A DNA stretch of 32,997 nucleotides from Singulisphaera sp. (GTDB taxonomy: Bacteria > Planctomycetota > Planctomycetia > Isosphaerales > Isosphaeraceae): the NCBI GenBank assembly GCA_027451445.1, contig DAIDJG010000441.1, forward strand, positions 1 to 32,997, in the 5' to 3' direction. Numbering within the stretch: position 1 is the stretch's first letter; the number at the start of each line of letters is the position of its first letter. Made by a program: the position numbers and the translations under genes. Below the pieces are notes generated by a model. It made no database searches. It worked only from the letters and a program-made list of their open reading frames with translations, and had not been told where the DNA came from. Shown here piece after piece: positions 4,386 to 30,534 of this stretch.

Positions 4386-4805
4386 TCAGTCCAGCAGCGG
4401 GATGAGTTCTTCGTCATCTTCGTCCGGTAATGACGGGAGACCTGGCAGGCCGAGATTGGGTGCAGGGCGAGAGGCCGGTGGAGGGGAAGCTTGCGGTGAT
4501 GGCGCAGCGACGGGGGCTTCGACCCCTTCGACACGATAGATGATCGGTCCGATCGCCAGTTCGTCTCCGGAGCGAAGGTTGGCTTCGTCCACGACGAGGC
4601 CGTTGAGACGCAGGCCGTTCCGGCTGCCCAGGTCGCGAATGACGAGCCGGTCGTAAGCCTGAGCGATGCAGCAGTGGCGGCGGGAGACCTTCGGAGAGTC
4701 AATCCGCACGTCACATTCCGGATGCCTGCCGATCAGCAGCACGGGACGTTGCAGGGGGATGGGAGGTGCAGAACCAGGGGTCAGTGGGACGAGTCGGGCC
4801 GACAT
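4386..4805 (-). CDS. FHA-domain protein, short (second of a tandem pair)
   Basis: A 139-residue protein with one forkhead-associated domain (about residues 5-90), a phosphothreonine-peptide binding module. The conserved binding residues are visible: GRHPECD (Gly26-Arg27), SRRH at 41-44, and LGSRNG with Asn63. After the domain comes a Pro/Ala-rich linker (about 95-120) and a very acidic C-terminal tail containing DEDDEE. Its first 25 bp overlap the end of the upstream FHA gene in another frame, so translation is probably coupled. It resembles the neighbour in its opening (MSARLVPL against MTARLVAL) and across the domain, which points to tandem duplication. The target is probably a Thr-phosphorylated protein from a Ser/Thr kinase pathway, but no kinase is in this window. 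Confidence 0.85.
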   Translation of the reverse strand: MSARLVPLTPGSAPPIPLQRPVLLIGRHPECDVRIDSPKVSRRHCCIAQAYDRLVIRDLGSRNGLRLNGLVVDEANLRSGDELAIGPIIYRVEGVEAPVAAPSPQASPPPASRPAPNLGLPGLPSLPDEDDEELIPLLD

Positions 4806-5332
4806 TCGTCTTCATTCTCCGGACTCTGCGGATCGTTCGGCATCTGGACGATCACCTGGATCCGGCAACGCTCCGAGACCCCAGCGGCAGCCAGGGCACC
4901 TCGCACCTTATCCGCAATGCCGTCTTCGACTCGGGGGTCTTCCGTGAACGCTCGCTCGGGCGCCTCGAGATTCTGCGACCTTTGGGCCAAAACAGCGCGA
5001 TCTTGACTTGCGTGCAGAGACACTGGATCGGCCATTGTCATGGCGTGCCCGTCGCCGTTATCCAATCGATATCGGATATGCGCGATGGATAATTCATCGC
5101 CCGACTTCAGACGGCCCATTTCCACGCGCTGACCGTTGATCCGTATTCCATTCGTGCTGCCGAGGTCGCGAACAACGACCTCACCGTGGTCGTTCGTCAT
5201 GCAGCAGTGGTGGCGGGAGACTCGTAACGAGTCGAGTCGAGCGTCGCACTGAGGGTGGCGCCCAACCACAACCATCGCGCGATCCAGCAGAATATCCTGC
5301 CCCTCATCCAGTGCCACCAGGCGTGCTGTCAT
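4781..5332 (-). CDS. FHA-domain protein with C-terminal extension (first of a tandem pair)
   Basis: A 183-residue protein with an N-terminal FHA domain (about 5-92): GRHPQCD with Gly24-Arg25, SRHH at 39-42, LGSTNG with Asn61. These are the residues that hold phosphothreonine peptides in the family. The C-terminal part carries DGIADKVRGALAAAG and RIQVIVQMP (about 135-170), which faintly resembles the alpha-beta pattern of a BON domain; that is a weak suggestion only. The ATG at 5332 has AGGA about 9 nt upstream. It overlaps the next FHA gene by 25 bp. Upstream is a 213-bp gap to the methyltransferase gene with a TATAAT motif, so the pair likely forms its own transcription unit. Confidence 0.87.
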   Translation of the reverse strand: MTARLVALDEGQDILLDRAMVVVGRHPQCDARLDSLRVSRHHCCMTNDHGEVVVRDLGSTNGIRINGQRVEMGRLKSGDELSIAHIRYRLDNGDGHAMTMADPVSLHASQDRAVLAQRSQNLEAPERAFTEDPRVEDGIADKVRGALAAAGVSERCRIQVIVQMPNDPQSPENEDECRPDSSH

Positions 5333-5545: not shown

Positions 5546-7036
5546 CTAATCTTCAGGGTCGTAGTCGGGACACGTCGCACACGCGGCGACCTTCGCGATA
5601 TCCAAACGCTTGAGCCCCGCAGCCAGCGCGGGAAGCTTTTCATCGTCAGGTGCGAACTGAGTGATCGTGCAATGACCGTGCAACTCGCATGCCCGGATCC
5701 AACGTCGGGGGCACGCACAGTCCAACCTATCAAGAATCGCGCCCAGGTGTTTGCAGTCGACATGTTGTCGAGGGTCAGGCGACTCGAGAAGCACGAACCC
5801 TGTATTGGCAAGTTCGAGCCACCGGCGCAGTCGTTCCGCTGGCGACTCGGAGGCACCTGTCTGCTCGGCGACCTGGGCATCGATCTGACCGCATGAGTTT
5901 ACATCATTGGTGCTTCGAAGCAAGAGGTCGGATCGGCGATCCAACTGGCCGAGTGCGCCGGTGACTGTGCGATAGACAACGCCGTTCGGCATCGAAGGCC
6001 GCACCGCGTCGTCATGCCGTGCAAGCCCGGTCAGGTGGGGAATGAGCCGGCTGATGGCCTCCGGATCGTCGCGGCTCTCGTCGGCCCAGCTTGGGACGTG
6101 GGGTTCGAAGTCGGCGTGGCAGGCGAAAATGCGGTACTCATCCGCGTGGAGAAGCGGATCAAGTGCATCGATGAGGATCGCGAGTTGGCGCGGGGGCAGG
6201 CCGTTGACGCGATCCTTGAGGGAATCCGGCACCGCACTCGTCGTCAGCACGCGGTTCGCCTGCCAGGGGGCGCGCGTGGCCGCGAAGAGGAAACGGTAGC
6301 CCGCGTCTTCGACCAGCGCGATGGCGTCGGGCAGTGCCCAGTCCGTCTCGGCTTCGTTCAAATAACCGGCGACGAAGCGCTCGATCGTGGGAAGTCCGTT
6401 GCCGCTCACGGCGGCCTCGTGCTTTCGGACCGGATGGTCGGGGCGGATGCTCCGCAGCAGGTCGAGCCCCACCTCGGCCCGATCTCGCAAGCTCGCGCCC
6501 GCGGGCACGACAGCGTCGATCGCTTCCCGCAACTGCCGCGCTGGGACTTGTCCGACGCGAGCCGGCAGGGTGATGTGCAGTAGCCCGCGGCGATCGAGGA
6601 CCGCGGCGAGGTTCTTCAAGATCCGTTTCGGATCGGCGGATTGTCCGAGAACTCGGCGACACACGATGAAATCAAAGGGTCCCCATGAGCCTGGCAGCGG
6701 ATCGTCGAGGTCGTGCTCGCGGAAGTCGATGCCTTCTGCGTTCGACGCGGCCACTCGCTCTCGGGCCAGGTCGAGGGCCTGCCTGGTCGCGTCGACGCCG
6801 AGCACGGTCGAGCCGGGGTTCAGGCGGCTGAGACCAAGGGTCGAGAGTCCCGTACCACAGCCTGCGTCGAGAATTCGCAAGCCCGTCGAGCGCCGGTAGC
6901 AATAACGATCGCGCGACCAGGACCAGCCGAAATGGTAGTTATCGTCGGTCCGGTCGAGCTGGCCCGGCCCGATCGGGACAACGGCGGGTGAGGGCTCGGG
7001 AAACTCTTCATACTGCCGGCGCACCGATTCGAGCAT
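5546..7036 (-). CDS. Class I SAM-dependent methyltransferase with Cys-rich C-terminal module
   Basis: A 496-residue protein. Start ATG 7036 has GAGGA 8 nt upstream; the TTG two codons earlier is too close to that site. SAM-binding motif I is ILDAGCGTG (about 55-63), with the acidic end of beta-2 in LGVDAT, so it is a Rossmann-type methyltransferase (about 50-165). A roughly 250-residue region of unknown fold follows. The last 70 residues (coded by 5546-5758) form a Cys/His-rich tail: CKHLG, CACPRRW, CELHGHC and CATCPDY, which looks metal binding. I recall similar tails on planctomycete glycosyltransferases; that is from memory, not searched. It is the last gene of a tight cluster with an epimerase (15 bp upstream) and a glycosyltransferase, so a role in modifying a glycan or glycolipid is inferred. 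The acceptor is unknown. Confidence 0.82.
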   Translation of the reverse strand: MLESVRRQYEEFPEPSPAVVPIGPGQLDRTDDNYHFGWSWSRDRYCYRRSTGLRILDAGCGTGLSTLGLSRLNPGSTVLGVDATRQALDLARERVAASNAEGIDFREHDLDDPLPGSWGPFDFIVCRRVLGQSADPKRILKNLAAVLDRRGLLHITLPARVGQVPARQLREAIDAVVPAGASLRDRAEVGLDLLRSIRPDHPVRKHEAAVSGNGLPTIERFVAGYLNEAETDWALPDAIALVEDAGYRFLFAATRAPWQANRVLTTSAVPDSLKDRVNGLPPRQLAILIDALDPLLHADEYRIFACHADFEPHVPSWADESRDDPEAISRLIPHLTGLARHDDAVRPSMPNGVVYRTVTGALGQLDRRSDLLLRSTNDVNSCGQIDAQVAEQTGASESPAERLRRWLELANTGFVLLESPDPRQHVDCKHLGAILDRLDCACPRRWIRACELHGHCTITQFAPDDEKLPALAAGLKRLDIAKVAACATCPDYDPED

Positions 7037-7051
7037 CTTCAAATTCCTCGA

Positions 7052-8116
7052 TCAAACAATCCGCGACAGGTGCGCGGTGTTCGCACTTCCCGTCTCTTTT
7101 CTGACAACATTCACGTCCTGCCGGTCTTCGAGTTGCCCGACCTCGCGCAGCCACCGCACCGCATCGGCGAGCGAATCGCGCACTGGACGAGGCACCAATC
7201 CCAGCGCCTCGAGACTGCGCGAGGCGTCAAAGTGCATCGTGCGCTGGGTCAGACGGACGCCCGTGACGGTCGCCTTGGGCGTTCGCCCGTGGCCGTAGTC
7301 CGCCCAGAACTCGCTCAGGTATGCTATCGCCAAACCCACCGGGAATGGGACACGGTATTTCGGAACCGGCACTCCGGACAATTCGGAGAGGATTGTGAGC
7401 AGGCTCACCAGCGTCAGGTTCTCACCACCGAGCAAGTACCGCCGGCCGGGTTCGCCGCGCTCGAGCGTGCGGATCAAGCCGTCGGCCACGTCGCGTACGT
7501 CGATCAGGTTCAGGGTACAGTCCATGCGCGCGGGGAGCTGACCGCGGCAAAAATCGCGAATCAGCCGGGTCGGTGGCGAGAGGCCACGATCGCCGGGTCC
7601 GACGGGCATGGTGGGATTGGCAATCACCACGGGCTTTCCCGCCCTGGCCCGCGCCATGGCTGCCTGCTCGGCCAGCAGCTTGGATCGGCAGTAGGGACCC
7701 ACGGCATCGTCAAGAGTAACCTCGACGTCCTCCGCGATTGGGCCGATCTGTCTCGCGCAGGTCAGAATACTCTCTGTGCTCGTGTGGAGCACGCGTTCGG
7801 CGCCGGCCTCGATCGCCGCGTCGAGCACATGGACGGTTCCTCGGTGGTTGACGGCGTCAAATTCCGCACGGTCGCGGACCCAAAGGTTGGGGTTCGCCGC
7901 CAGGTGGTAGACCCATCGGGCTCCCTGGAGGGCTTCGCGCACGGCGGCGGCATCTCGGATGTCCGCACGGACGACATCAGCCTCAGCCGGGAGGTGCGAG
8001 ACCGCCGCGCCCGGACGTTCCACCACGCGGACGCGTTGGCCTCGCTCGACGAGCTGCGCGACGAGGTGACTGCCGATGAAGCCGGCACCTCCTGTGACGA
8101 CCGTGAGTGCCTCCAT
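7052..8116 (-). CDS. NAD-dependent epimerase/dehydratase family protein (extended SDR, HpnA/dihydroflavonol reductase-like)
   Basis: A 354-residue extended short-chain dehydrogenase. The nucleotide-binding motif TGGAGFIGS is at residues 8-16, the catalytic YxxxK is PYCRSK, and a Ser/Thr active-site segment is HTSTES. The stretch NPTMPVGPGD, followed by NLIDVRDVADG and LLGGENLTL, resembles the HpnA/dihydroflavonol-4-reductase branch more than UDP-glucose 4-epimerases. Start ATG 8116 has AGAGAGGA 8 nt upstream; a GTG at 8140 overlapping the previous stop (GTGA) is the alternative. It sits 20 bp after the glycosyltransferase stop and 15 bp before the methyltransferase start, so the three are probably co-transcribed. 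Substrate is likely a nucleotide sugar or an isoprenoid-linked sugar; hopanoid work is possible from the family resemblance but no hpn neighbours are visible. Confidence 0.87.
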   Translation of the reverse strand: MEALTVVTGGAGFIGSHLVAQLVERGQRVRVVERPGAAVSHLPAEADVVRADIRDAAAVREALQGARWVYHLAANPNLWVRDRAEFDAVNHRGTVHVLDAAIEAGAERVLHTSTESILTCARQIGPIAEDVEVTLDDAVGPYCRSKLLAEQAAMARARAGKPVVIANPTMPVGPGDRGLSPPTRLIRDFCRGQLPARMDCTLNLIDVRDVADGLIRTLERGEPGRRYLLGGENLTLVSLLTILSELSGVPVPKYRVPFPVGLAIAYLSEFWADYGHGRTPKATVTGVRLTQRTMHFDASRSLEALGLVPRPVRDSLADAVRWLREVGQLEDRQDVNVVRKETGSANTAHLSRIV

Positions 8117-8136
8117 GCGTTGCGTCCTCTCTGAAC

Positions 8137-10467
8137 TCACTTGACCCGGAAGAGCTGCTGGCGTGCGCCGAGCATTGAGGGTGTTTCCAGCACGCCGGCC
8201 TCAATCAGCTTATCGAAGAGTTCGGGCTGCACATAGTCGGTGAAACCATAGTTCCCGGGTGAACGGTAGCGCTCGATCTCGAACCAGTCGACGTACACGT
8301 GAGTGACGCCCAGACGTCGCAGCGACTCGCGGATTTCGGTCGGCGATCGACCGCGCGTCAGGGTCTCGATGGTTTCCTCGTTGAAGACTGTGTTGTAAAC
8401 GATCGGGTGCTGGAAATGGAAGACCGCGGCCTGTCCGACCAGCAGAACTTTCGCGTCCGGCGGCAGTTCCGCATCAAGGCGCACAAGCGGCGCGTTGAGC
8501 ATGGCGGGGACGGATTTGCGCAGAACGTTCAGGTCGGCGGTCCACTCGTTCAAGCCGGCGAGTGCCGTGGAATCGTAGACGAAGTTGGTGAGGATCGAGA
8601 GGCTCATCAGGAGGGCGAGCAGGACCGTCCAGGCGTTGTGACGCACCCAATCGGCGCCGATTCCGGCCAGGACGGCGAAGGTGGGGAGCAGCGGGAGCCA
8701 AAAGCGATCGACCCTGTGGGTGAGGAACCACCAACTGAAAAACAAGTAGATGCCATAGGCCCAGAGTGCGATGGCCCAGCGTCGCGTACCCGGCCGGCAG
8801 AGCGCTAAAGGCGCGAGCGCGAGGTAGAGCGGGGATTGCCAGTCGGACCGACCCACAACGTCCGAGAGGCTGTCGACGAAGAAATCGAGCCGCACGGGTT
8901 TGGGCCCGTGCTCGTGATTCCACTTGGTATCGAGCTTCGAATTCCAGTACTGGCCACCAAAAACGCGATAGGCCAGCGGATAGACCGGGTTCCCTGTGTC
9001 GACGACGTTCTTGGCGAGCCAGGGTCCCATCACGACACTCCAGCCGAGCGCGTAGGCCAGGACGATCCGAGCACTGCGCTTCCGAAACGACTCAATCAGT
9101 GCGATGGCGCCGAACGGCAGGACGGCGGAGATCAGACCGGGGTACTTGCATGCCATCGCGCCCCCGGCAAACAGGCCGGCAAGGAGCCAAAGTCGTGACC
9201 GGTGACTCGCCGGGATGGGCTCACCCTGGGGCGACCAGAGTCGCGCGACGGTCCAGACGAGTGCGGCGTGGTAGTAGCAGAGGGGGCCTTCGACGTAAGG
9301 GATCACACCGAGTCGGTACACCCACGGGGTTGTCAAATAGACGACGGCCGCCATCCAGGCGGCTCGGGGTGATGCCAGGCGCCGGGCGGTCATGGCCACC
9401 ATGGCCGCGGTTGCGGGTGCGAACGCCGCAATCAGCAACTGGCCGGTGAGGGCGCCTTGCCAGTCGTTTCCTATCACCTCCATGCCGAGCAGGTGAAGCA
9501 TCTCGATTCCGAACGGCATGCTCGTGTAGACGTTGTGCGGCAAGAGCGCGATGCGCCCTTTCTGGAAGTACTCGCGAGGGCCCTGGAGGTGGTACTCGAT
9601 CGAGTCGAAATCGATCGTCGGCAGCATCGACCCGAGCGCGATCACCAGCAGAAATGGCGCGGTCACCAGTGCGAACGACACCCACCGCAATCCGGCTCGC
9701 GCAGGTTTCGCAGAGGCTTGGCGCTGACGTGTGCTCTGGTCCCTCGACCGGGTCCAGACCGAGTGCGCGATCGCCAGCACGATCAATGCGCCAAGACCCG
9801 CCCTCGTCGAGACGGGATTGAGCCATCCCATGCGGCCGACGAGCAGTGTGATCACACCCAGGAAGGAGACGCCCAGACCGAACGCGAGGGGCAGACGTTC
9901 CCACCACTCCAGTGGGATTCGAGCCGGAACCTCGTTGACCTCGTCCGGCACCGAGGTTTGTCCGAATCCGATGACGCGGAGGACGAAGAGCCCGAGCGCA
10001 GTTGCGGCGCCGCCGATCAGACACGCGGCCAAGACGATGGGAACGCGCTGGGTGAGGAACTCCACGTGGCTCAGTTCGCCCAACGCCATGCCAAGATAGC
10101 ACTGGTCGAACCGGACCCCGGGCACGACTCCGGGCAGAGCGCGCCAGAGGAACAGCGAGCGCTGGACGTTCCCGCCGACGTTACCGGCGTTCGGCAGCGG
10201 TTCGGTGAGAAACCAGCGAAGCCAGAGAAACTCAACGATGACGAGCAGAATCAGAAACGGCAAGAAGTTCCGGTAACACCACGACGGGTGGGTCTCGGAT
10301 GGGGCGAGGTTGACCATGGAATCCGTAGAGCGGTTTGCGTTTGGATCGCGCACGCCATCGCGTCGCGCCGCGCCCTTCGCGAGCGGGAGAGCCTCATAAC
10401 TCCCCCCCTTGGGAAGGGGGGGGTGGGGGGGTGGGGATTGGCCGTCCGATGCGTACGACTCAGGCAC
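8137..10467 (-). CDS. GT-C fold membrane glycosyltransferase (family 39/ArnT-like)
   Basis: A 776-residue polytopic membrane protein with about a dozen hydrophobic segments. After the first transmembrane helix pair the extracytoplasmic loop carries DFDSIEYHLQGPREYF, the acidic motif position expected for GT-C enzymes that use lipid-phosphate-linked sugars, and a second conserved segment is PYVEGPLCYYHAA. A soluble C-terminal domain of about 150 residues ends the protein. Predicted role: transfer of a sugar from a polyprenyl-phosphate donor to a protein, lipid or glycan outside the membrane. Two starts are possible. GTG 10467 has AGGAG 8 nt upstream but lies inside the 167-bp repeat, giving a Pro-rich, non-conserved leader. 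ATG 10317 gives a protein starting MVNLAPSE just before the first helix but has only a weak ribosome site. First gene of the cluster with the epimerase and methyltransferase. Confidence 0.85.
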   Translation of the reverse strand: MPESYASDGQSPPPHPPLPKGGSYEALPLAKGAARRDGVRDPNANRSTDSMVNLAPSETHPSWCYRNFLPFLILLVIVEFLWLRWFLTEPLPNAGNVGGNVQRSLFLWRALPGVVPGVRFDQCYLGMALGELSHVEFLTQRVPIVLAACLIGGAATALGLFVLRVIGFGQTSVPDEVNEVPARIPLEWWERLPLAFGLGVSFLGVITLLVGRMGWLNPVSTRAGLGALIVLAIAHSVWTRSRDQSTRQRQASAKPARAGLRWVSFALVTAPFLLVIALGSMLPTIDFDSIEYHLQGPREYFQKGRIALLPHNVYTSMPFGIEMLHLLGMEVIGNDWQGALTGQLLIAAFAPATAAMVAMTARRLASPRAAWMAAVVYLTTPWVYRLGVIPYVEGPLCYYHAALVWTVARLWSPQGEPIPASHRSRLWLLAGLFAGGAMACKYPGLISAVLPFGAIALIESFRKRSARIVLAYALGWSVVMGPWLAKNVVDTGNPVYPLAYRVFGGQYWNSKLDTKWNHEHGPKPVRLDFFVDSLSDVVGRSDWQSPLYLALAPLALCRPGTRRWAIALWAYGIYLFFSWWFLTHRVDRFWLPLLPTFAVLAGIGADWVRHNAWTVLLALLMSLSILTNFVYDSTALAGLNEWTADLNVLRKSVPAMLNAPLVRLDAELPPDAKVLLVGQAAVFHFQHPIVYNTVFNEETIETLTRGRSPTEIRESLRRLGVTHVYVDWFEIERYRSPGNYGFTDYVQPELFDKLIEAGVLETPSMLGARQQLFRVK

Positions 10468-24910: not shown

Positions 24911-27900
24911 TCAGAGGCGAGCGTGGCGGCTGTTCCGCTTAATGGCGATGACGCTCGGGCCCAGTGGTCCCTGCGGTGGTCGGATCGACGGTTGCGAAGG
25001 AACCTTCCGTGCGGTGCGTGAACCGCCGCTCACGAACGAGGAGGTCATCGTCGACGTCCGGCTCACGGACGCAGTATCGGCCGCCGTCAGCAACGGGGCA
25101 TCGCGGTTCGCCACATCAATGAATGGCGACGCGCCGTACTGGAGCAGGAATGTTCGGTACCCCGGCGCATTGTGGGCTAAGTCGTTCAGAAGTTCGCCGT
25201 TCGTGGCCACGACCGGCGTTTGATGCAGGGCGATCGCGTGCAGGAGGTCGTTGATCACCTGGCCGGTGGGTACGATGATCAGCGTGTTGGTATTGGGGTT
25301 GAACGCCAGCTTCGCGTTGTACGGCACGTCCGCATAGCCGGAATTCCCCGTGGTCACGCCGCCGCTGTGGGGAACGAGCATCACGCCGAAACGGCTCAGG
25401 GTCTGCGGTGTAAACGACAGCGGTTCGCTGAAGCTCACCGAAACGTAGCCCAGGGGGTTGGTAATCAGCGACTCGGGCGGATTGGTCGATGTGATCCTGA
25501 AGGGCGATTGCCCGGCGCCGATGGGGTTGGAGGTCACGCCGAACGTCGTGTAGAAACTCGCTCCGTTGGATGCGGAGGGCGACTGGTTCAACAACGTTCC
25601 GTTATTGGGGAACTTCGTATCGTCGGTCACGTTGCGAGAGACCGAAACCAGGTAAAGCATTCCGCGCGTGAGTGTGGTCTCAGGCGTCAAATAGGCCGTG
25701 TGATTCGTGGGGCTGTACGCGACTGCAGAGGGCTCCAACTGATAAGAGCCACCACTCACCGGCTCGCCCAGAAGCTGGATCGTGTTCGTGTTGATCGTGT
25801 AGGGATCCATCGCCTTGTTGAAAACGATGGCAATCGTGTCCGGCTGAGGAATCCCATTGTTGTTGATCGGTACCGTGCCCTCGTACGCGGAGACGGACGT
25901 GACCACCGGGGCCGCGGACGTGATCGGCGGGGGAAGGTATTCAAACGAGGCGTAGTAATTGCCGGGCACGCCGGCATTGCTCAATAACGGGTTGCCCGCG
26001 AGGTCGAAGAGGTTGTTGATCGAAATGAGGTAAATGTTGGTTGTGAGGGGTTCATGCGGTGTGAGTATGATCGTGGACGTGCCGTTGGCGTTGTCGGTGT
26101 AGGTGGCCGTCGCGGGGACGGGGAGGTCGCCCGCGTCGATGCCGCTGGGCGCGGTCCATAAATTGCCCGTCTGTTGCTGGGCAGTCTGCCCATCCGGGCC
26201 GCTGGGAATCAGCATGACGCAGAACGGATTGCCCGCGAATCCCGTCGCGTTCGGGTCCTGCGACGAAAGTCCGGTAAGAGGATGGCTGAGGGTGACGATC
26301 ACCTGCCCGTTGTTGGGCAGCGGGAGCGTGGTGCCATTGTAGAACCCGCCGGGGTTGTTGACGCTGACGACCTTCAGCTTCGTCCAGATCGAGACGGGTA
26401 GCGAGGCCGGCGAAAGTGCGCTCTGGGTACCGCCCGACGTCAGCGCAGCGGAGGCCGCGAAGGTGTAAACGCCATCGGCCAGGGGCAGATCGCTGCCGCC
26501 GTTGAGCGTGACCGTGGCCGTGCCGTTGATGGCCTGAACGGGGTTGCCGAGGCGAACCGGGAAACTGGGATTGGTGTCGTTGTAAAGCTGGACGAAGGCG
26601 TTTGCGGGCGACACGTTGGCGACGGTGAACATGAGTGGAGCCGTCGCCGACCCGTCGTCGCGGGTGATCCGGTCGGAGTGGCTTACGCCGGTGTCACTGG
26701 TGGGGCTTAGCACGGGTCGGCCCGGCACTCCGGATGCCCCGCCGGCGTTGGTGACGGTTGTCGCTGAGAACTCGGACGTGTTGCCACTCGGATCGGTCGC
26801 GGTGGCGGCGAGGTATTGGCCCGAGAGAACCTCGTTGACCTGGAACGTGAACACGGGCGTATTGCCGCTCGCGTCCGTGGTCGCGTTCACGAAACCGAGA
26901 AACGTCTGCCCCTGGCCGTACCCGGTGGGATCGGCGGCGGGGTTGGAGAAGAACTCGATGCGGAACGTTGTGTTGGGTGTGCTGTTGAGCGTGCCGGTGA
27001 TCGTCGTCGTGCCGCCGCTGATGCTGGGCGCGTTGAGCACTGGGTAGTTTGGCAGGTTGTTGACGCCGGCGTGCGGACCGCCGGGCGAATTGATCAACGG
27101 CGCTCCAGAGCCCCCGAGATCGATGCCGAGCCCGGCGTTGCCGAAGATCTGGTTGCCGAGGATGCTGTTCCCCTCGGTGGTGGTGCTGGCTGCTGTCGCC
27201 GTGTTGATCGCAATGTCCACTCCGTCCGCCGGGACGACCGCGGTCCCGGTTGGGCTGGTGCCGTACGCAATGATGTTGCCCGAACCGCTGGAGGTGCCGC
27301 CGATCGTGTTGGCGGACGCGTCGATGATCGCGACGCCGGGTCCCTTATTGCCGAGCGGGGCGTTGCCGACCGCGTTGGTCCCAATGAAGTTGCCCGCGAC
27401 GAGGTTCCCGGTGTTGGTGTCGCCTGCGAGCTCATTTGCCCCGTTGATCGAGACACCGCCCTCGCCATTGCCCGAGATCACGTTTGCTGCGCCGATCGAC
27501 GTGCCGCCGACGGTGTTGTTCGCGCAGTCGACCCCAACGCCGTAGCCGCTGTTCGGCGCGGCGGCGGTCGCCGCGGCGTTGGTACCGAGGAAGTTCCCTT
27601 CGACGAGGTCGCCGCCGGTGCCGATCAGATCGATGGCGTCGAAGGCTTGCCCGCCGCCTGTTCCCTGGTTTGGGATGAACGCGTCGAAATTGCCGATGGC
27701 CAGGCCGCTTATGGTGGAGTTGCCCCCGGCGATCTCGAGTCCGTTGACAGCGCCGGCGATCGATCCGTCGAGCACGATCTTGAGCACAGCGTTGTCGCCG
27801 AGGCCGGAACCGTTCGTGTCGGTCGCTGCGCCGGGTTGCGTGTAGCCGTCGATGACGACGGGGTTGATCACCGTCGGTAGCGCAGACTCCGGCTTGATCG

Positions 27901-29962
27901 TCCAAATGCCCCCCAGGAAACCGCTGTCGGAGCTCGGGATGTCGAAAGTGATCTCGTCGGTGCCCACTGGCAAGGTGGTGACCTGGGCCTGTTCCGGCGG
28001 GGTGAGCGAACCGATGCCGAGCGTGCCGTTGACCAGCTCGATCGCCTGGCGCAGGGAGAGCGTGTTACCCAGCGTGTTCGTGTCGGACGTCGTATTCACC
28101 ACGATCTGCAATCCCGCGGGCAGGCCGGCCTGGACGGCCTTCGAGAACTCCGACGTGTTGCCGTTCGGATCAGTTGCGGTTGTCGTGATGAACTTGCCGA
28201 CGAGGTTTTTCCCGGTGCTGATCGAGAAGTCCGCGTTGCCGTTGGCGTCGGTCGTGACGTGAGCGTTGATAATCGCCTGCTGCCCCTGACCGTAACCCGA
28301 GGGATCGGCAGACTGGCTGGCATACACGAAGATGGTGAATGACGTGTTGGGTATGCTGTTCAGCGCACCGATGATGGACGTGTCGCCGCTAGTCGTCGGA
28401 ACACTGGTGATGATTGGGTAATTCTGCAAGTCGTCGGGGCCGGTATGTGGTCCACGAGGCGTGTTGACGAGGGGGACGCCGGTACCGCCGAGGTCGATCC
28501 CGAGTGGCGCATTGTCATAAACGTTGTTGCCGTCGAGCCGGTCGCCTGTGCTGGGGGTGAAGGAGCTGTCGAAAGAGACGACGATGCCGCCGGCCTGCGC
28601 GAGGCCTGAGCGGCCGTTGTTGTCGATCGTGTTCGCTGCGCCGAGCGCGGTGCCGCCGATCGTGTTGTTAGAGGCGTCGACGATCAACACGCCCGTGCGC
28701 GCGTTCCCCAGCGACTTGTCCACCCCCTCGTCGGTTCCGATGAAGTTGGCAGCGACCTCGTTACCGGTGGCGCTGGCGCCTGAGATGAGCACACCGACGC
28801 CGGAGGGGCCAGAACCGAGGGCCGTGTGCGCCGAGATGACATTGCCCACGGCGAGGCCGTTCTGGGCATCGACCCATCCGACGGAATTGTCGGGTGCGTC
28901 GTTCAGCATGACGCCGAAGGCGCCCTGAGGATTTCCGTGTGGGGTGAGTTCCCCGGTGATGTCGGTGCCGATTCGGTTGTCGGCGATGGTGTTATTCGTC
29001 GAGTTCGAGTCCGCGATCTCGACGTCGCCCGTTTGGTCGTTCGTGGAGCCGTTCCCGGCGATCGTGTTGGTCGGACTACCGGTGTAGCCAGCAATCGCGC
29101 CGACGACGTTATTCGACGCTCCGTTGTTGATTAGCACACCGTCGCCGCCGTTGGCGAGTACGGTCTGGCCGCCGGAGTCGAGACCGATCAGGTTGCCCTG
29201 GACCATGTTCCCTGAGGCGCCGGGCCCCGTGATCTGAAGCCCGGTCGACAGGTTGCCGGAGATGACATTGACTGCGGCTCCCGCGTCTCCGCCGATGGTG
29301 TTGTTCGTGATTCCCGTGACGAGCACGCCGAACGAATTGGGAACGCGGGAGAGCCCCAGTGCATCGGTGCCGATGAAGTTACCGGTGATGAGATTACTGC
29401 CATTCTGCTCCAACTCGATTCCTGCACCTGGAAATCCACTGATCGCCAGCCCCTCGACCGTGCTGTTCCCCCCCTGGAGGACGAGACCGTTGGCTGTCGG
29501 GCCAGCATTGGCGCCGCTGAGAGCGATGACGATCTTGGCATTGTCGGTGGAGGCCGTATTGCCGGTATTGACCGTGGAGCCCGGCTGTGAGTACCCGTTG
29601 ACCGTAACCGGGGAAGTGATGATTGGCAGTGCACCGAAGGGGGCGATCGTCCAGACGCCATTCGTAAAGCCAGGGTCCGACGACGGAATGTCGAAATCGA
29701 TCGTAGACGAGCTGCCCAGCGCGGAGCCACTGATTTGCTCTTGCTGTTTCTGACTCAACGACGAGACGGACAAGGTCCCGTCGACGATCTCGATTGCGTC
29801 TCGCAGCGTGAGGAATAAGGTGCCCGCTGCGTCGGACGTCGTGTCCACCGTGAGGATCGTCGCGGGCAAGCAGCGCCGTTCGAGTGGCTCGACCGAAGGG
29901 GCTCGGCTGTTGCCGCGGCGCAGGCAGTTGGAATACCGGGGGCGTCGGGTTTGAGACCCCAT
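24911..29962 (-). CDS. Giant secreted parallel beta-helix protein with duplicated N-terminal half and Ig-like C-terminus
   Basis: A 1683-residue surface protein. Start ATG 29962 is preferred because AAAGGA lies 10 nt upstream; the ATG at 29971 sits almost on that site. The N-terminus SVEPLERRCLPATIL resembles the planctomycete LEPR-XLL export motif. Two similar units follow: about 37-613 and 619-1071. Each opens with a CSLREA-like block (TTSDAAGTLFLTLRDAIEIV; TTSDTNTLGNTLSLRQAIEL), then FDIPSSD, a GYSQPG/GYTQPG segment and rows of right-handed beta-helix turns with NFIGTD, NTIGG and NVISGN repeats, and closes with a GYGQGQ plus DPNGNTSEFS domain. After about 1080 come Ig-like and SbsA-like domains (for example IAIVFNKAMDPYTINTNTI). 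Probably an adhesin or envelope component. No cell-wall anchor or sorting signal was recognised at the C-terminus. Confidence 0.9.
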   Translation of the reverse strand: MGSQTRRPRYSNCLRRGNSRAPSVEPLERRCLPATILTVDTTSDAAGTLFLTLRDAIEIVDGTLSVSSLSQKQQEQISGSALGSSSTIDFDIPSSDPGFTNGVWTIAPFGALPIITSPVTVNGYSQPGSTVNTGNTASTDNAKIVIALSGANAGPTANGLVLQGGNSTVEGLAISGFPGAGIELEQNGSNLITGNFIGTDALGLSRVPNSFGVLVTGITNNTIGGDAGAAVNVISGNLSTGLQITGPGASGNMVQGNLIGLDSGGQTVLANGGDGVLINNGASNNVVGAIAGYTGSPTNTIAGNGSTNDQTGDVEIADSNSTNNTIADNRIGTDITGELTPHGNPQGAFGVMLNDAPDNSVGWVDAQNGLAVGNVISAHTALGSGPSGVGVLISGASATGNEVAANFIGTDEGVDKSLGNARTGVLIVDASNNTIGGTALGAANTIDNNGRSGLAQAGGIVVSFDSSFTPSTGDRLDGNNVYDNAPLGIDLGGTGVPLVNTPRGPHTGPDDLQNYPIITSVPTTSGDTSIIGALNSIPNTSFTIFVYASQSADPSGYGQGQQAIINAHVTTDANGNADFSISTGKNLVGKFITTTATDPNGNTSEFSKAVQAGLPAGLQIVVNTTSDTNTLGNTLSLRQAIELVNGTLGIGSLTPPEQAQVTTLPVGTDEITFDIPSSDSGFLGGIWTIKPESALPTVINPVVIDGYTQPGAATDTNGSGLGDNAVLKIVLDGSIAGAVNGLEIAGGNSTISGLAIGNFDAFIPNQGTGGGQAFDAIDLIGTGGDLVEGNFLGTNAAATAAAPNSGYGVGVDCANNTVGGTSIGAANVISGNGEGGVSINGANELAGDTNTGNLVAGNFIGTNAVGNAPLGNKGPGVAIIDASANTIGGTSSGSGNIIAYGTSPTGTAVVPADGVDIAINTATAASTTTEGNSILGNQIFGNAGLGIDLGGSGAPLINSPGGPHAGVNNLPNYPVLNAPSISGGTTTITGTLNSTPNTTFRIEFFSNPAADPTGYGQGQTFLGFVNATTDASGNTPVFTFQVNEVLSGQYLAATATDPSGNTSEFSATTVTNAGGASGVPGRPVLSPTSDTGVSHSDRITRDDGSATAPLMFTVANVSPANAFVQLYNDTNPSFPVRLGNPVQAINGTATVTLNGGSDLPLADGVYTFAASAALTSGGTQSALSPASLPVSIWTKLKVVSVNNPGGFYNGTTLPLPNNGQVIVTLSHPLTGLSSQDPNATGFAGNPFCVMLIPSGPDGQTAQQQTGNLWTAPSGIDAGDLPVPATATYTDNANGTSTIILTPHEPLTTNIYLISINNLFDLAGNPLLSNAGVPGNYYASFEYLPPPITSAAPVVTSVSAYEGTVPINNNGIPQPDTIAIVFNKAMDPYTINTNTIQLLGEPVSGGSYQLEPSAVAYSPTNHTAYLTPETTLTRGMLYLVSVSRNVTDDTKFPNNGTLLNQSPSASNGASFYTTFGVTSNPIGAGQSPFRITSTNPPESLITNPLGYVSVSFSEPLSFTPQTLSRFGVMLVPHSGGVTTGNSGYADVPYNAKLAFNPNTNTLIIVPTGQVINDLLHAIALHQTPVVATNGELLNDLAHNAPGYRTFLLQYGASPFIDVANRDAPLLTAADTASVSRTSTMTSSFVSGGSRTARKVPSQPSIRPPQGPLGPSVIAIKRNSRHARL

Positions 29963-30534
29963 GGGTCGCATTTCCTTTTACGATCAGTCGCCGGTGTGTG
30001 CCCGCCAGGGTCCGTCACAACCAAGCTGGTATTCCTTATGCTGGACCGCTCGCGCTTCCGGTTGCCACCGGGGCCATCCGGAAAGCTCTCCGCAGGGCGG
30101 GAATGGTCCACCACTTCTCCACGAAACCGGCGGGCACCGCCGTGACGACGTCTTCGGACAGATGTTTTCAGGACATGTATTCTATCTGGCGGGTCGTCTC
30201 CATGGAATCATGCTCCCACGACAGCAAACGGCAGATCCCGACTCGTGGGTGCGCCCGTTGATAACGAGGTGGGAAGGCGCTCGGGCCAACGACGCAGCTC
30301 GCGTGGGGGAGGCAAGTCGCGCTCAATTAATCCCGAGCGTCTCGAAATTGTTTGACTTTGCTTGAAAAACCGGGCACCGTTCCGTTACAGTGTGTCGATA
30401 GATAATCCTTAAGTGGATCGTGCTTTGCCGACCATCGAAACCACACCGCACGCACGGGACGGGTCGCAGCCACTGACCTACCGGGTGCGAATTCCCGCCG
30501 TGATCGATCCAAACCACGAAGAGAGGAGCGACCG
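29963..30534. other. Divergent intergenic region between the beta-helix and DUF1549 genes
   Basis: About 570 bp between two divergent genes, so it should carry both promoters. Short open frames cross it on both strands but none has a recognisable domain or a good start. A moderate plus-strand promoter candidate is at 30362-30391. Nothing convincing was found for the minus-strand gene beyond its ribosome site. Confidence 0.5.
30362..30391 (+). promoter_or_regulatory. Possible promoter of the DUF1549/DUF1553 gene
   Basis: TTGAAA (30362-30367, 5 of 6 to the -35 consensus) and TACAGT (30386-30391, 4 of 6 to -10) are 18 bp apart, about 140 bp before the start codon, in a locally AT-richer patch. 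Suggestive only. Confidence 0.35.

Follow-up and report, generated by a model that had tools for sequence, protein, structure and literature searches.

The methyltransferase encoded at positions 5546–7036 on the minus strand of the window (the entire 32,997-nucleotide stretch of Singulisphaera sp. DNA analyzed here) ends in a small Cys/His module that is conserved among its orthologues, portable between proteins, found in characteristic gene contexts and, where it forms the tail of a methyltransferase, confined to a single clade. The family libraries, as searched, offered no convincing entry for the module, which characterizes a group of glycan-modifying enzymes both in uncultured viral contigs and in planctomycetes, whose cell surface is unusual. 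It is present both on enzymes that handle sugars and in gene clusters for virus tails, which suggests that viruses and their bacterial hosts have exchanged it as a common docking part; the docking role and a phage-to-host direction of transfer are what we infer.

A conserved Cys/His module ends the window methyltransferase

The gene, its module with the eight candidate metal ligands (numbered from the ATG) and the neighboring genes are as follows:

5546..7036, minus: class I SAM-dependent methyltransferase with C-terminal Cys/His module (ATG at 7036, 496 aa)
6536..6886, minus: methyltransferase domain, P0001 residues 53-169 (Pfam PF13847)
5549..5764, minus: Cys/His module, 72 residues (searches and alignment of 54 copies)
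5753..5755, minus: C1 = C428, kept in 54/54 copies
5717..5719, minus: C2 = C440, kept in 51/54 copies
5711..5713, minus: C3 = C442, kept in 51/54 copies
5687..5689, minus: C4 = C450, kept in 54/54 copies
5678..5680, minus: H5 = H453, kept in 46/54 copies
5669..5671, minus: C6 = C456, kept in 48/54 copies
5579..5581, minus: C7 = C486, kept in 54/54 copies
5570..5572, minus: C8 = C489, kept in 53/54 copies
7052..8140, minus: NAD-dependent sugar epimerase/dehydratase, upstream neighbor (PF01370, 7e-33)
8137..10467, minus: PMT_2-type (GT39-like) membrane glycosyltransferase, upstream neighbor (PF13231, 1e-7)
4781..5332, minus: FHA-domain protein, downstream neighbor (PF00498)
4386..4805, minus: FHA-domain protein, downstream neighbor (PF00498)

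The open frame (5546-7042, minus) extends upstream to a TTG at 7042, and the ATG at 7036, from which the orthologues align, is the likely start codon. PF13847 scores 64.9 bits against a cut-off of 27, which identifies the protein as a class I SAM-dependent methyltransferase, and no evident signal peptide was seen by eye. The original prediction had singled out a tail with the motifs CKHLG, CACPRRW, CELHGHC and CATCPDY, all of which lie at the C-terminal end of the frame; C1, C2, C3, C4, H5, C6, C7 and C8, the ordered set by which module membership was judged, are found 8/8. The Cys enrichment of the tail exceeds chance: 7 of the 12 Cys of the protein fall within 72 of its 496 residues (hypergeometric P = 4.5e-4), at least 7 Cys in 72 residues have P = 1.8e-5 at the 1.1% Cys of 16 other window frames selected by hand, and the densest 72-residue stretch of those frames holds at most 5. 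The tail alone matched no family in Pfam (E up to 0.1) or in NCBIfam (E up to 1), which was queried with the window protein and its tail only.

Searches with the full-length protein among 59 genomes (its own and relatives) returned five orthologues at E up to 1e-15, namely that of its own genome, where a single copy of the module was found, and those of four other Isosphaeraceae (loci L065-L068). All five keep the tail. Loss of the Cys in close orthologues had been named beforehand as grounds for abandoning the idea of a module; all seven are kept in 5/5 and, together with H430 and H453, are invariant. Invariant columns number 30/72 in the tail and 101/424 in the body. Homologues of an altronate dehydratase, the PMT_2 glycosyltransferase, the sugar epimerase and the two FHA proteins flank the methyltransferase in 3/4 orthologous loci, and none of these conserved neighbors was found in the fourth, L066 (13.1 kb).

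The module recurs in planctomycetes and uncultured viral contigs

Profile and single-sequence searches showed that this order of ligands occurs in other planctomycetes too, as it does in uncultured viral contigs. Whereas the prediction would have lost its ground had no other protein shown the pattern, 54 distinct copies were found after identical and contained sequences were dropped, copies that are mutually related and hence non-independent. All eight ligands are present in 38/54, with few exceptions to the usual spacing C1-x(9-19)-C2-x(1,2)-C3-x(7-11)-C4-x2-H5-x2-C6-x(4-29)-C7-x2-C8, and the pattern is supported by alignments A1 (n=7 sequences), A2 (n=10) and A6 (n=27). The DNA pattern searches fixed C2, C3 and C4, or C2, C3, C4, H5 and C6, and the related-locus patterns fixed part of the region around C3-C4, while C1, C7 and C8 were free in every scan that yielded members. 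Two subtypes can be told apart: a short W-type, C-x-C-x3-W-x3-C, to which the window tail belongs, and a longer one in which a V-x-L-K-V-F stretch separates C3 from C4. By eye, a second Cys motif immediately precedes the module in L035, L036, L048 and L049 (fusions and, in one case, a small protein), and L069-L072 and L088 bear an additional N-terminal Cys-rich segment.

The L026 module has matches in 12/95 genomes of family f3 at E up to 0.01. Scans with A1 over the class and with A2 over the phylum gave 18/397 and 13/392 genomes, respectively, at the same threshold, figures that are not counts of true modules because only 14 and 17 first-look candidates were scored per genome and short chance matches are included. 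A strict pattern, which picks up one subtype only, was present in 5/397 class genomes with a reversed control of 0. The L026 module, used as a query on viral contigs, yielded nothing that could be confirmed. Annotated phages were negative with three module queries and with a GT9 fusion query, as were plasmids with one query. A further query against annotated phages reached E 0.2 with the jumbo-phage record LR756502, where the matched stretch looks by eye like a DnaJ-like zinc repeat, and E 4 with Arthrobacter phage Maja. With 0/27 module copies matching PHROGs at E up to 0.01, Pfam, NCBIfam and PHROGs as searched hold no convincing family for the module. Titles and abstract openings of the searched literature yielded no description of it, and the passages on cysteine-rich proteins in PMC8567305 treat other, cell-wall proteins.

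Recognized fusion partners are mainly glycan enzymes

Portability of the tail, as first proposed, is borne out by copies on planctomycete and viral-contig glycosyltransferases. A Pfam scan covered 18 non-orthologue fusion frames, read from stop to stop so that the beginning of a frame does not mark the gene start, and omitting L059 and L064, which are close to L057. Eight match glycosyltransferases above the curated cut-off (PF11051 in L049, L052, L054, L061 and L062; GT9 in L053 and L088; GT2 in L097), four match glycan enzymes below it (L051 GT25, L026 GT4, L085 GH130, L035 GT2), and one, L060, carries a phage tail component above it (PF04883). The remaining 5/18 (L036, L055, L057, L086, L095) match none of these classes, L036, L057 and L086 resembling glycosyltransferases by eye. 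Three of the eight glycosyltransferase fusions, L049, L054 and L061, additionally carry a PF05050 FkbM methyltransferase; the window is thus not the only place where the module has a methyltransferase partner.

The module had been expected at the end of planctomycete glycosyltransferases. It does occur on these enzymes, but mostly at their N-terminus (L026, L049, L051-L054, L061, L062, L088, L097); a C-terminal module is seen in L086, glycosyltransferase-like by eye only, and in the phage component L060. Apart from the fusions, many copies are encoded as small proteins of their own.

In a tree of the 54 modules, the five methyltransferase tails group into one clade (support 88/95; present in 86% of bootstrap trees), nested among viral-contig and planctomycete copies in a group of 21 rows (support 96/81). 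The tree was built on 58 columns, its bootstrap is unsettled, and neither its root nor its direction is fixed. A single fusion suffices to account for the methyltransferase tails.

Phage and prophage tail operons contain many copies

The glycosyltransferase setting proposed at the outset holds for the fusions, but it did not foresee the phage and prophage tail operons in which many copies lie. On the viral contig L080, a tape measure gene (PHROGs) is followed by the module gene, a glycosyltransferase-like frame recognized by eye and lacking a Pfam or PHROGs match, and tail fiber and collar genes. Among stand-alone viral copies, only the near-identical L077, L079, L080 and L081, a group that recurs as L099, L103 and L106, have a glycosyltransferase-like gene directly downstream, as judged by eye. 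The next gene looks structural for a phage in L071, L072, L073, L074 and L104, again by eye; nothing recognizable lies directly downstream of the remaining stand-alone viral copies. That the module groups glycan enzymes together, as first proposed, is a hypothesis: in most stand-alone copies the next gene downstream is not recognizable as one for a glycosyltransferase or other glycan enzyme.

PHROGs identified a tape measure near the module in 4/12 chromosomal regions (L133, L134, L137, L138), the phage-gene scans of these regions leaving out L127, L130, L131 and L136; a fifth candidate, in L132, had no PHROGs match. Two other regions, L128 and L135, contain an integrase, and the L136 region spans the phage-component fusion L060.

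A second feature of these loci is the composition of the gene directly upstream. It exceeds 3% Cys in 24/31 loci, several of them related, versus 3/79 other genes, with mean Cys contents of 4.8% in the upstream frames and 1.0% in other genes of the same loci. Length and not Cys content decided which upstream frame was used. A composition score served to pick the 79 comparison genes, with those beside the junction excluded, and near-duplicates as well as L084, L086, L127, L129 and L136 were left out of the count. These Cys-rich proteins, encoded in viral and prophage-like loci (for example L069 6763-7785, L070 6781-7818, L091 7840-8850, L098 10480-11559 and L137 5993-7510), contain up to 25 Cys (in a stretch of 336 residues), and CC..C motifs occur close to the N-terminus of several. 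None of ten matched PHROGs, so their place in the virion is only putative.

Two further arrangements were noted: L128 5680-6257 (genome G092) is a tandem pair of module genes with a phage integrase gene ~3 kb away, and in L129 6384-12277 (G236) the genes next to the module gene encode a heptose kinase/nucleotidyltransferase-like protein, a GT2 and a GT9-methyltransferase fusion.

Comparison with known families and structures

The body of the window protein resembles class I methyltransferases generally. By sequence, residues 56-161 match PKMT1/2 of Rickettsia (5doo, 3.4e-8) and residues 53-296 match Rv2067c of Mycobacterium (8hkr, 5.5e-7), both protein lysine methyltransferases. In structure, 8hkr aligns over 305 residues (25-412) at Z 18.3, the longest alignment among the matches listed, but with an rmsd of 10.1; 3mgg is better by sequence (2.2e-8) and 26 entries rank above 8hkr by Z. 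The range aligned to this lysine methyltransferase excludes the Cys/His tail, and membership of this kind, which would call for similarity along the full length with the helical C-terminal part, is no more than a possibility for the window protein. Methyltransf_13 (PF08421), the N-terminal zinc domain of sugar C-methyltransferases, is likewise a zinc module attached to a class I methyltransferase that acts in sugar metabolism, but the window module is C-terminal with up to eight ligands, and PF08421 is absent among the Pfam families (E up to 0.1) reported for the window protein.

Two known families resemble the module itself. TerY-C (PF15616), which sits on VWA-type proteins, is matched by the viral-contig protein L086, with its module at the C-terminus, at 3.8e-4, but at 21.0 bits, below the curated cut-off of 28.4; by eye, the planctomycete TerY-C proteins L111-L114 have a Cys layout similar to that of the module. 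With 0/27 copies matching at E up to 0.1 and none in G000 at E up to 0.001, TerY-C was rejected as the module family. A RING finger was rejected as well. Its ligands run C-x2-C, C-x(1-3)-H-x(2,3)-[CH]-x2-C, C-x2-C; a PDB profile search aligned the third RING of MIB1 (RING3) via C-x2-C, C..HG.C and C-x2-C, at a non-significant E of 6.1, whereas the 54 copies show C-x(1,2)-C, C-x2-H-x2-C, C-x2-C, without the second C-x2-C that follows the His in a RING and with an additional N-terminal Cys. The other Pfam matches among 27 copies are weak: DUF7563 (one copy, 0.0079), DUF7351 (one, 0.015), DUF7129 (four, best 0.02) and the GRXCR1/2 C-terminal family (one, 0.025), besides L036 with IHO1 (0.083) and L048 with Ocnus (0.13). 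By sequence, the PDB entry that the window tail matches best is HERC2 (E 0.026).

AlphaFold modeled the methyltransferase core of the full window protein well, with block means of pLDDT 41-57 in the tail, too poor to establish how the tail folds. The only module copy that folds confidently is the stand-alone L091, predicted as a small beta-rich fold (mean pLDDT 83.8). This model had no Foldseek match in the PDB below E 1 and none in BFVD at E up to 0.001, and not one of 84 chains reached Z 2 with VIA-align; Foldseek paired it with three uncharacterized uncultured Caudovirales proteins (probability 1.00, E 0.007-0.022). This absence of a solved-fold match shows neither that the fold is new nor that the module lacks a known one.

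A putative zinc-binding docking adaptor

From the ligand pattern only, we infer that the tail binds metal. Our tentative reading, in which doubt slightly outweighs belief, is that it is a zinc-binding module, probably with two sites, acting as a docking adaptor for a modifying enzyme. C1, C4 and C7 are universal and C8 is kept in all but one copy, while the others are lost in some, which suggests an indispensable site of C1, C4, C7 and C8 and a looser one of C2, C3, H5 and C6. C2 and C3 are jointly missing in the same three copies of 54; C6 is missing in six and H5 in eight, with no copy lacking both, a pattern that does not single out one second site.

The same residues might serve as a structural zinc clip that stabilizes the attached domain and docks nothing. 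Small Cys4-type modules often merely stabilize folds, and every orthologue found has kept the tail; yet the module is seen N-terminal, C-terminal and stand-alone, and with several catalytic domains, for which a clip belonging to one fold would have no need, and we consider this explanation somewhat unlikely. An Fe-S cluster, or a thiol redox or metal sensor gating the enzyme, would fit the seven Cys with their C-x(1,2)-C and C-x2-C pairs, but is improbable given the His of C-x2-H-x2-C in 46/54 copies and given that the joint C2/C3 loss (three copies) and the loss of H5 or C6 are tolerated while C1, C4 and C7 stay; His frequency and tolerated losses would be better accommodated by zinc sites. 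A nucleic-acid-binding zinc ribbon recruiting the enzyme to DNA or RNA, comparable in size and Cys pairs and favored by the L123 copy, which by eye shares an open frame with a truncated DNA-methylase-like stretch, is very improbable, as the recognized fusion partners are mainly glycan enzymes and a glycosyltransferase and a sugar epimerase adjoin the gene in 3/4 orthologous loci.

Under the docking reading, fused copies would serve enzymes acting on surface or virion material, namely glycosyltransferases, in some cases with an FkbM methyltransferase beside them; stand-alone copies often lie behind the gene of a Cys-rich protein in a phage tail operon, and this protein is the likely partner. 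One fusion would have placed a copy on the C-terminus of the window methyltransferase, where it may keep the enzyme bound to the protein or glycan on which it acts. A wider scenario, which we regard as unlikely in its entirety, would make the module the docking part of a planctomycete-phage tail-modification cassette, composed of a Cys-rich virion protein, the Cys/His module and a glycosyltransferase with or without a methyltransferase, and captured by hosts; the window methyltransferase would be one such capture, now directed to a cell-surface glycoprotein. If the module is a docking part, it would help to predict enzyme-substrate pairings and would draw attention to tail operons as the possible site of a virion-modification cassette, open to direct test.

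Within the window, the frames adjoining the methyltransferase gene have at most 2.7% Cys and Pfam identified a phage protein among 0/9 window proteins scanned, so that the phage setting may not carry over to this locus. Farther along the window, positions 24911-29971 on the minus strand encode a 1686-residue protein with only 4 Cys, whose N-terminal PLERRCLPA is, we presume, reminiscent of planctomycete surface proteins.
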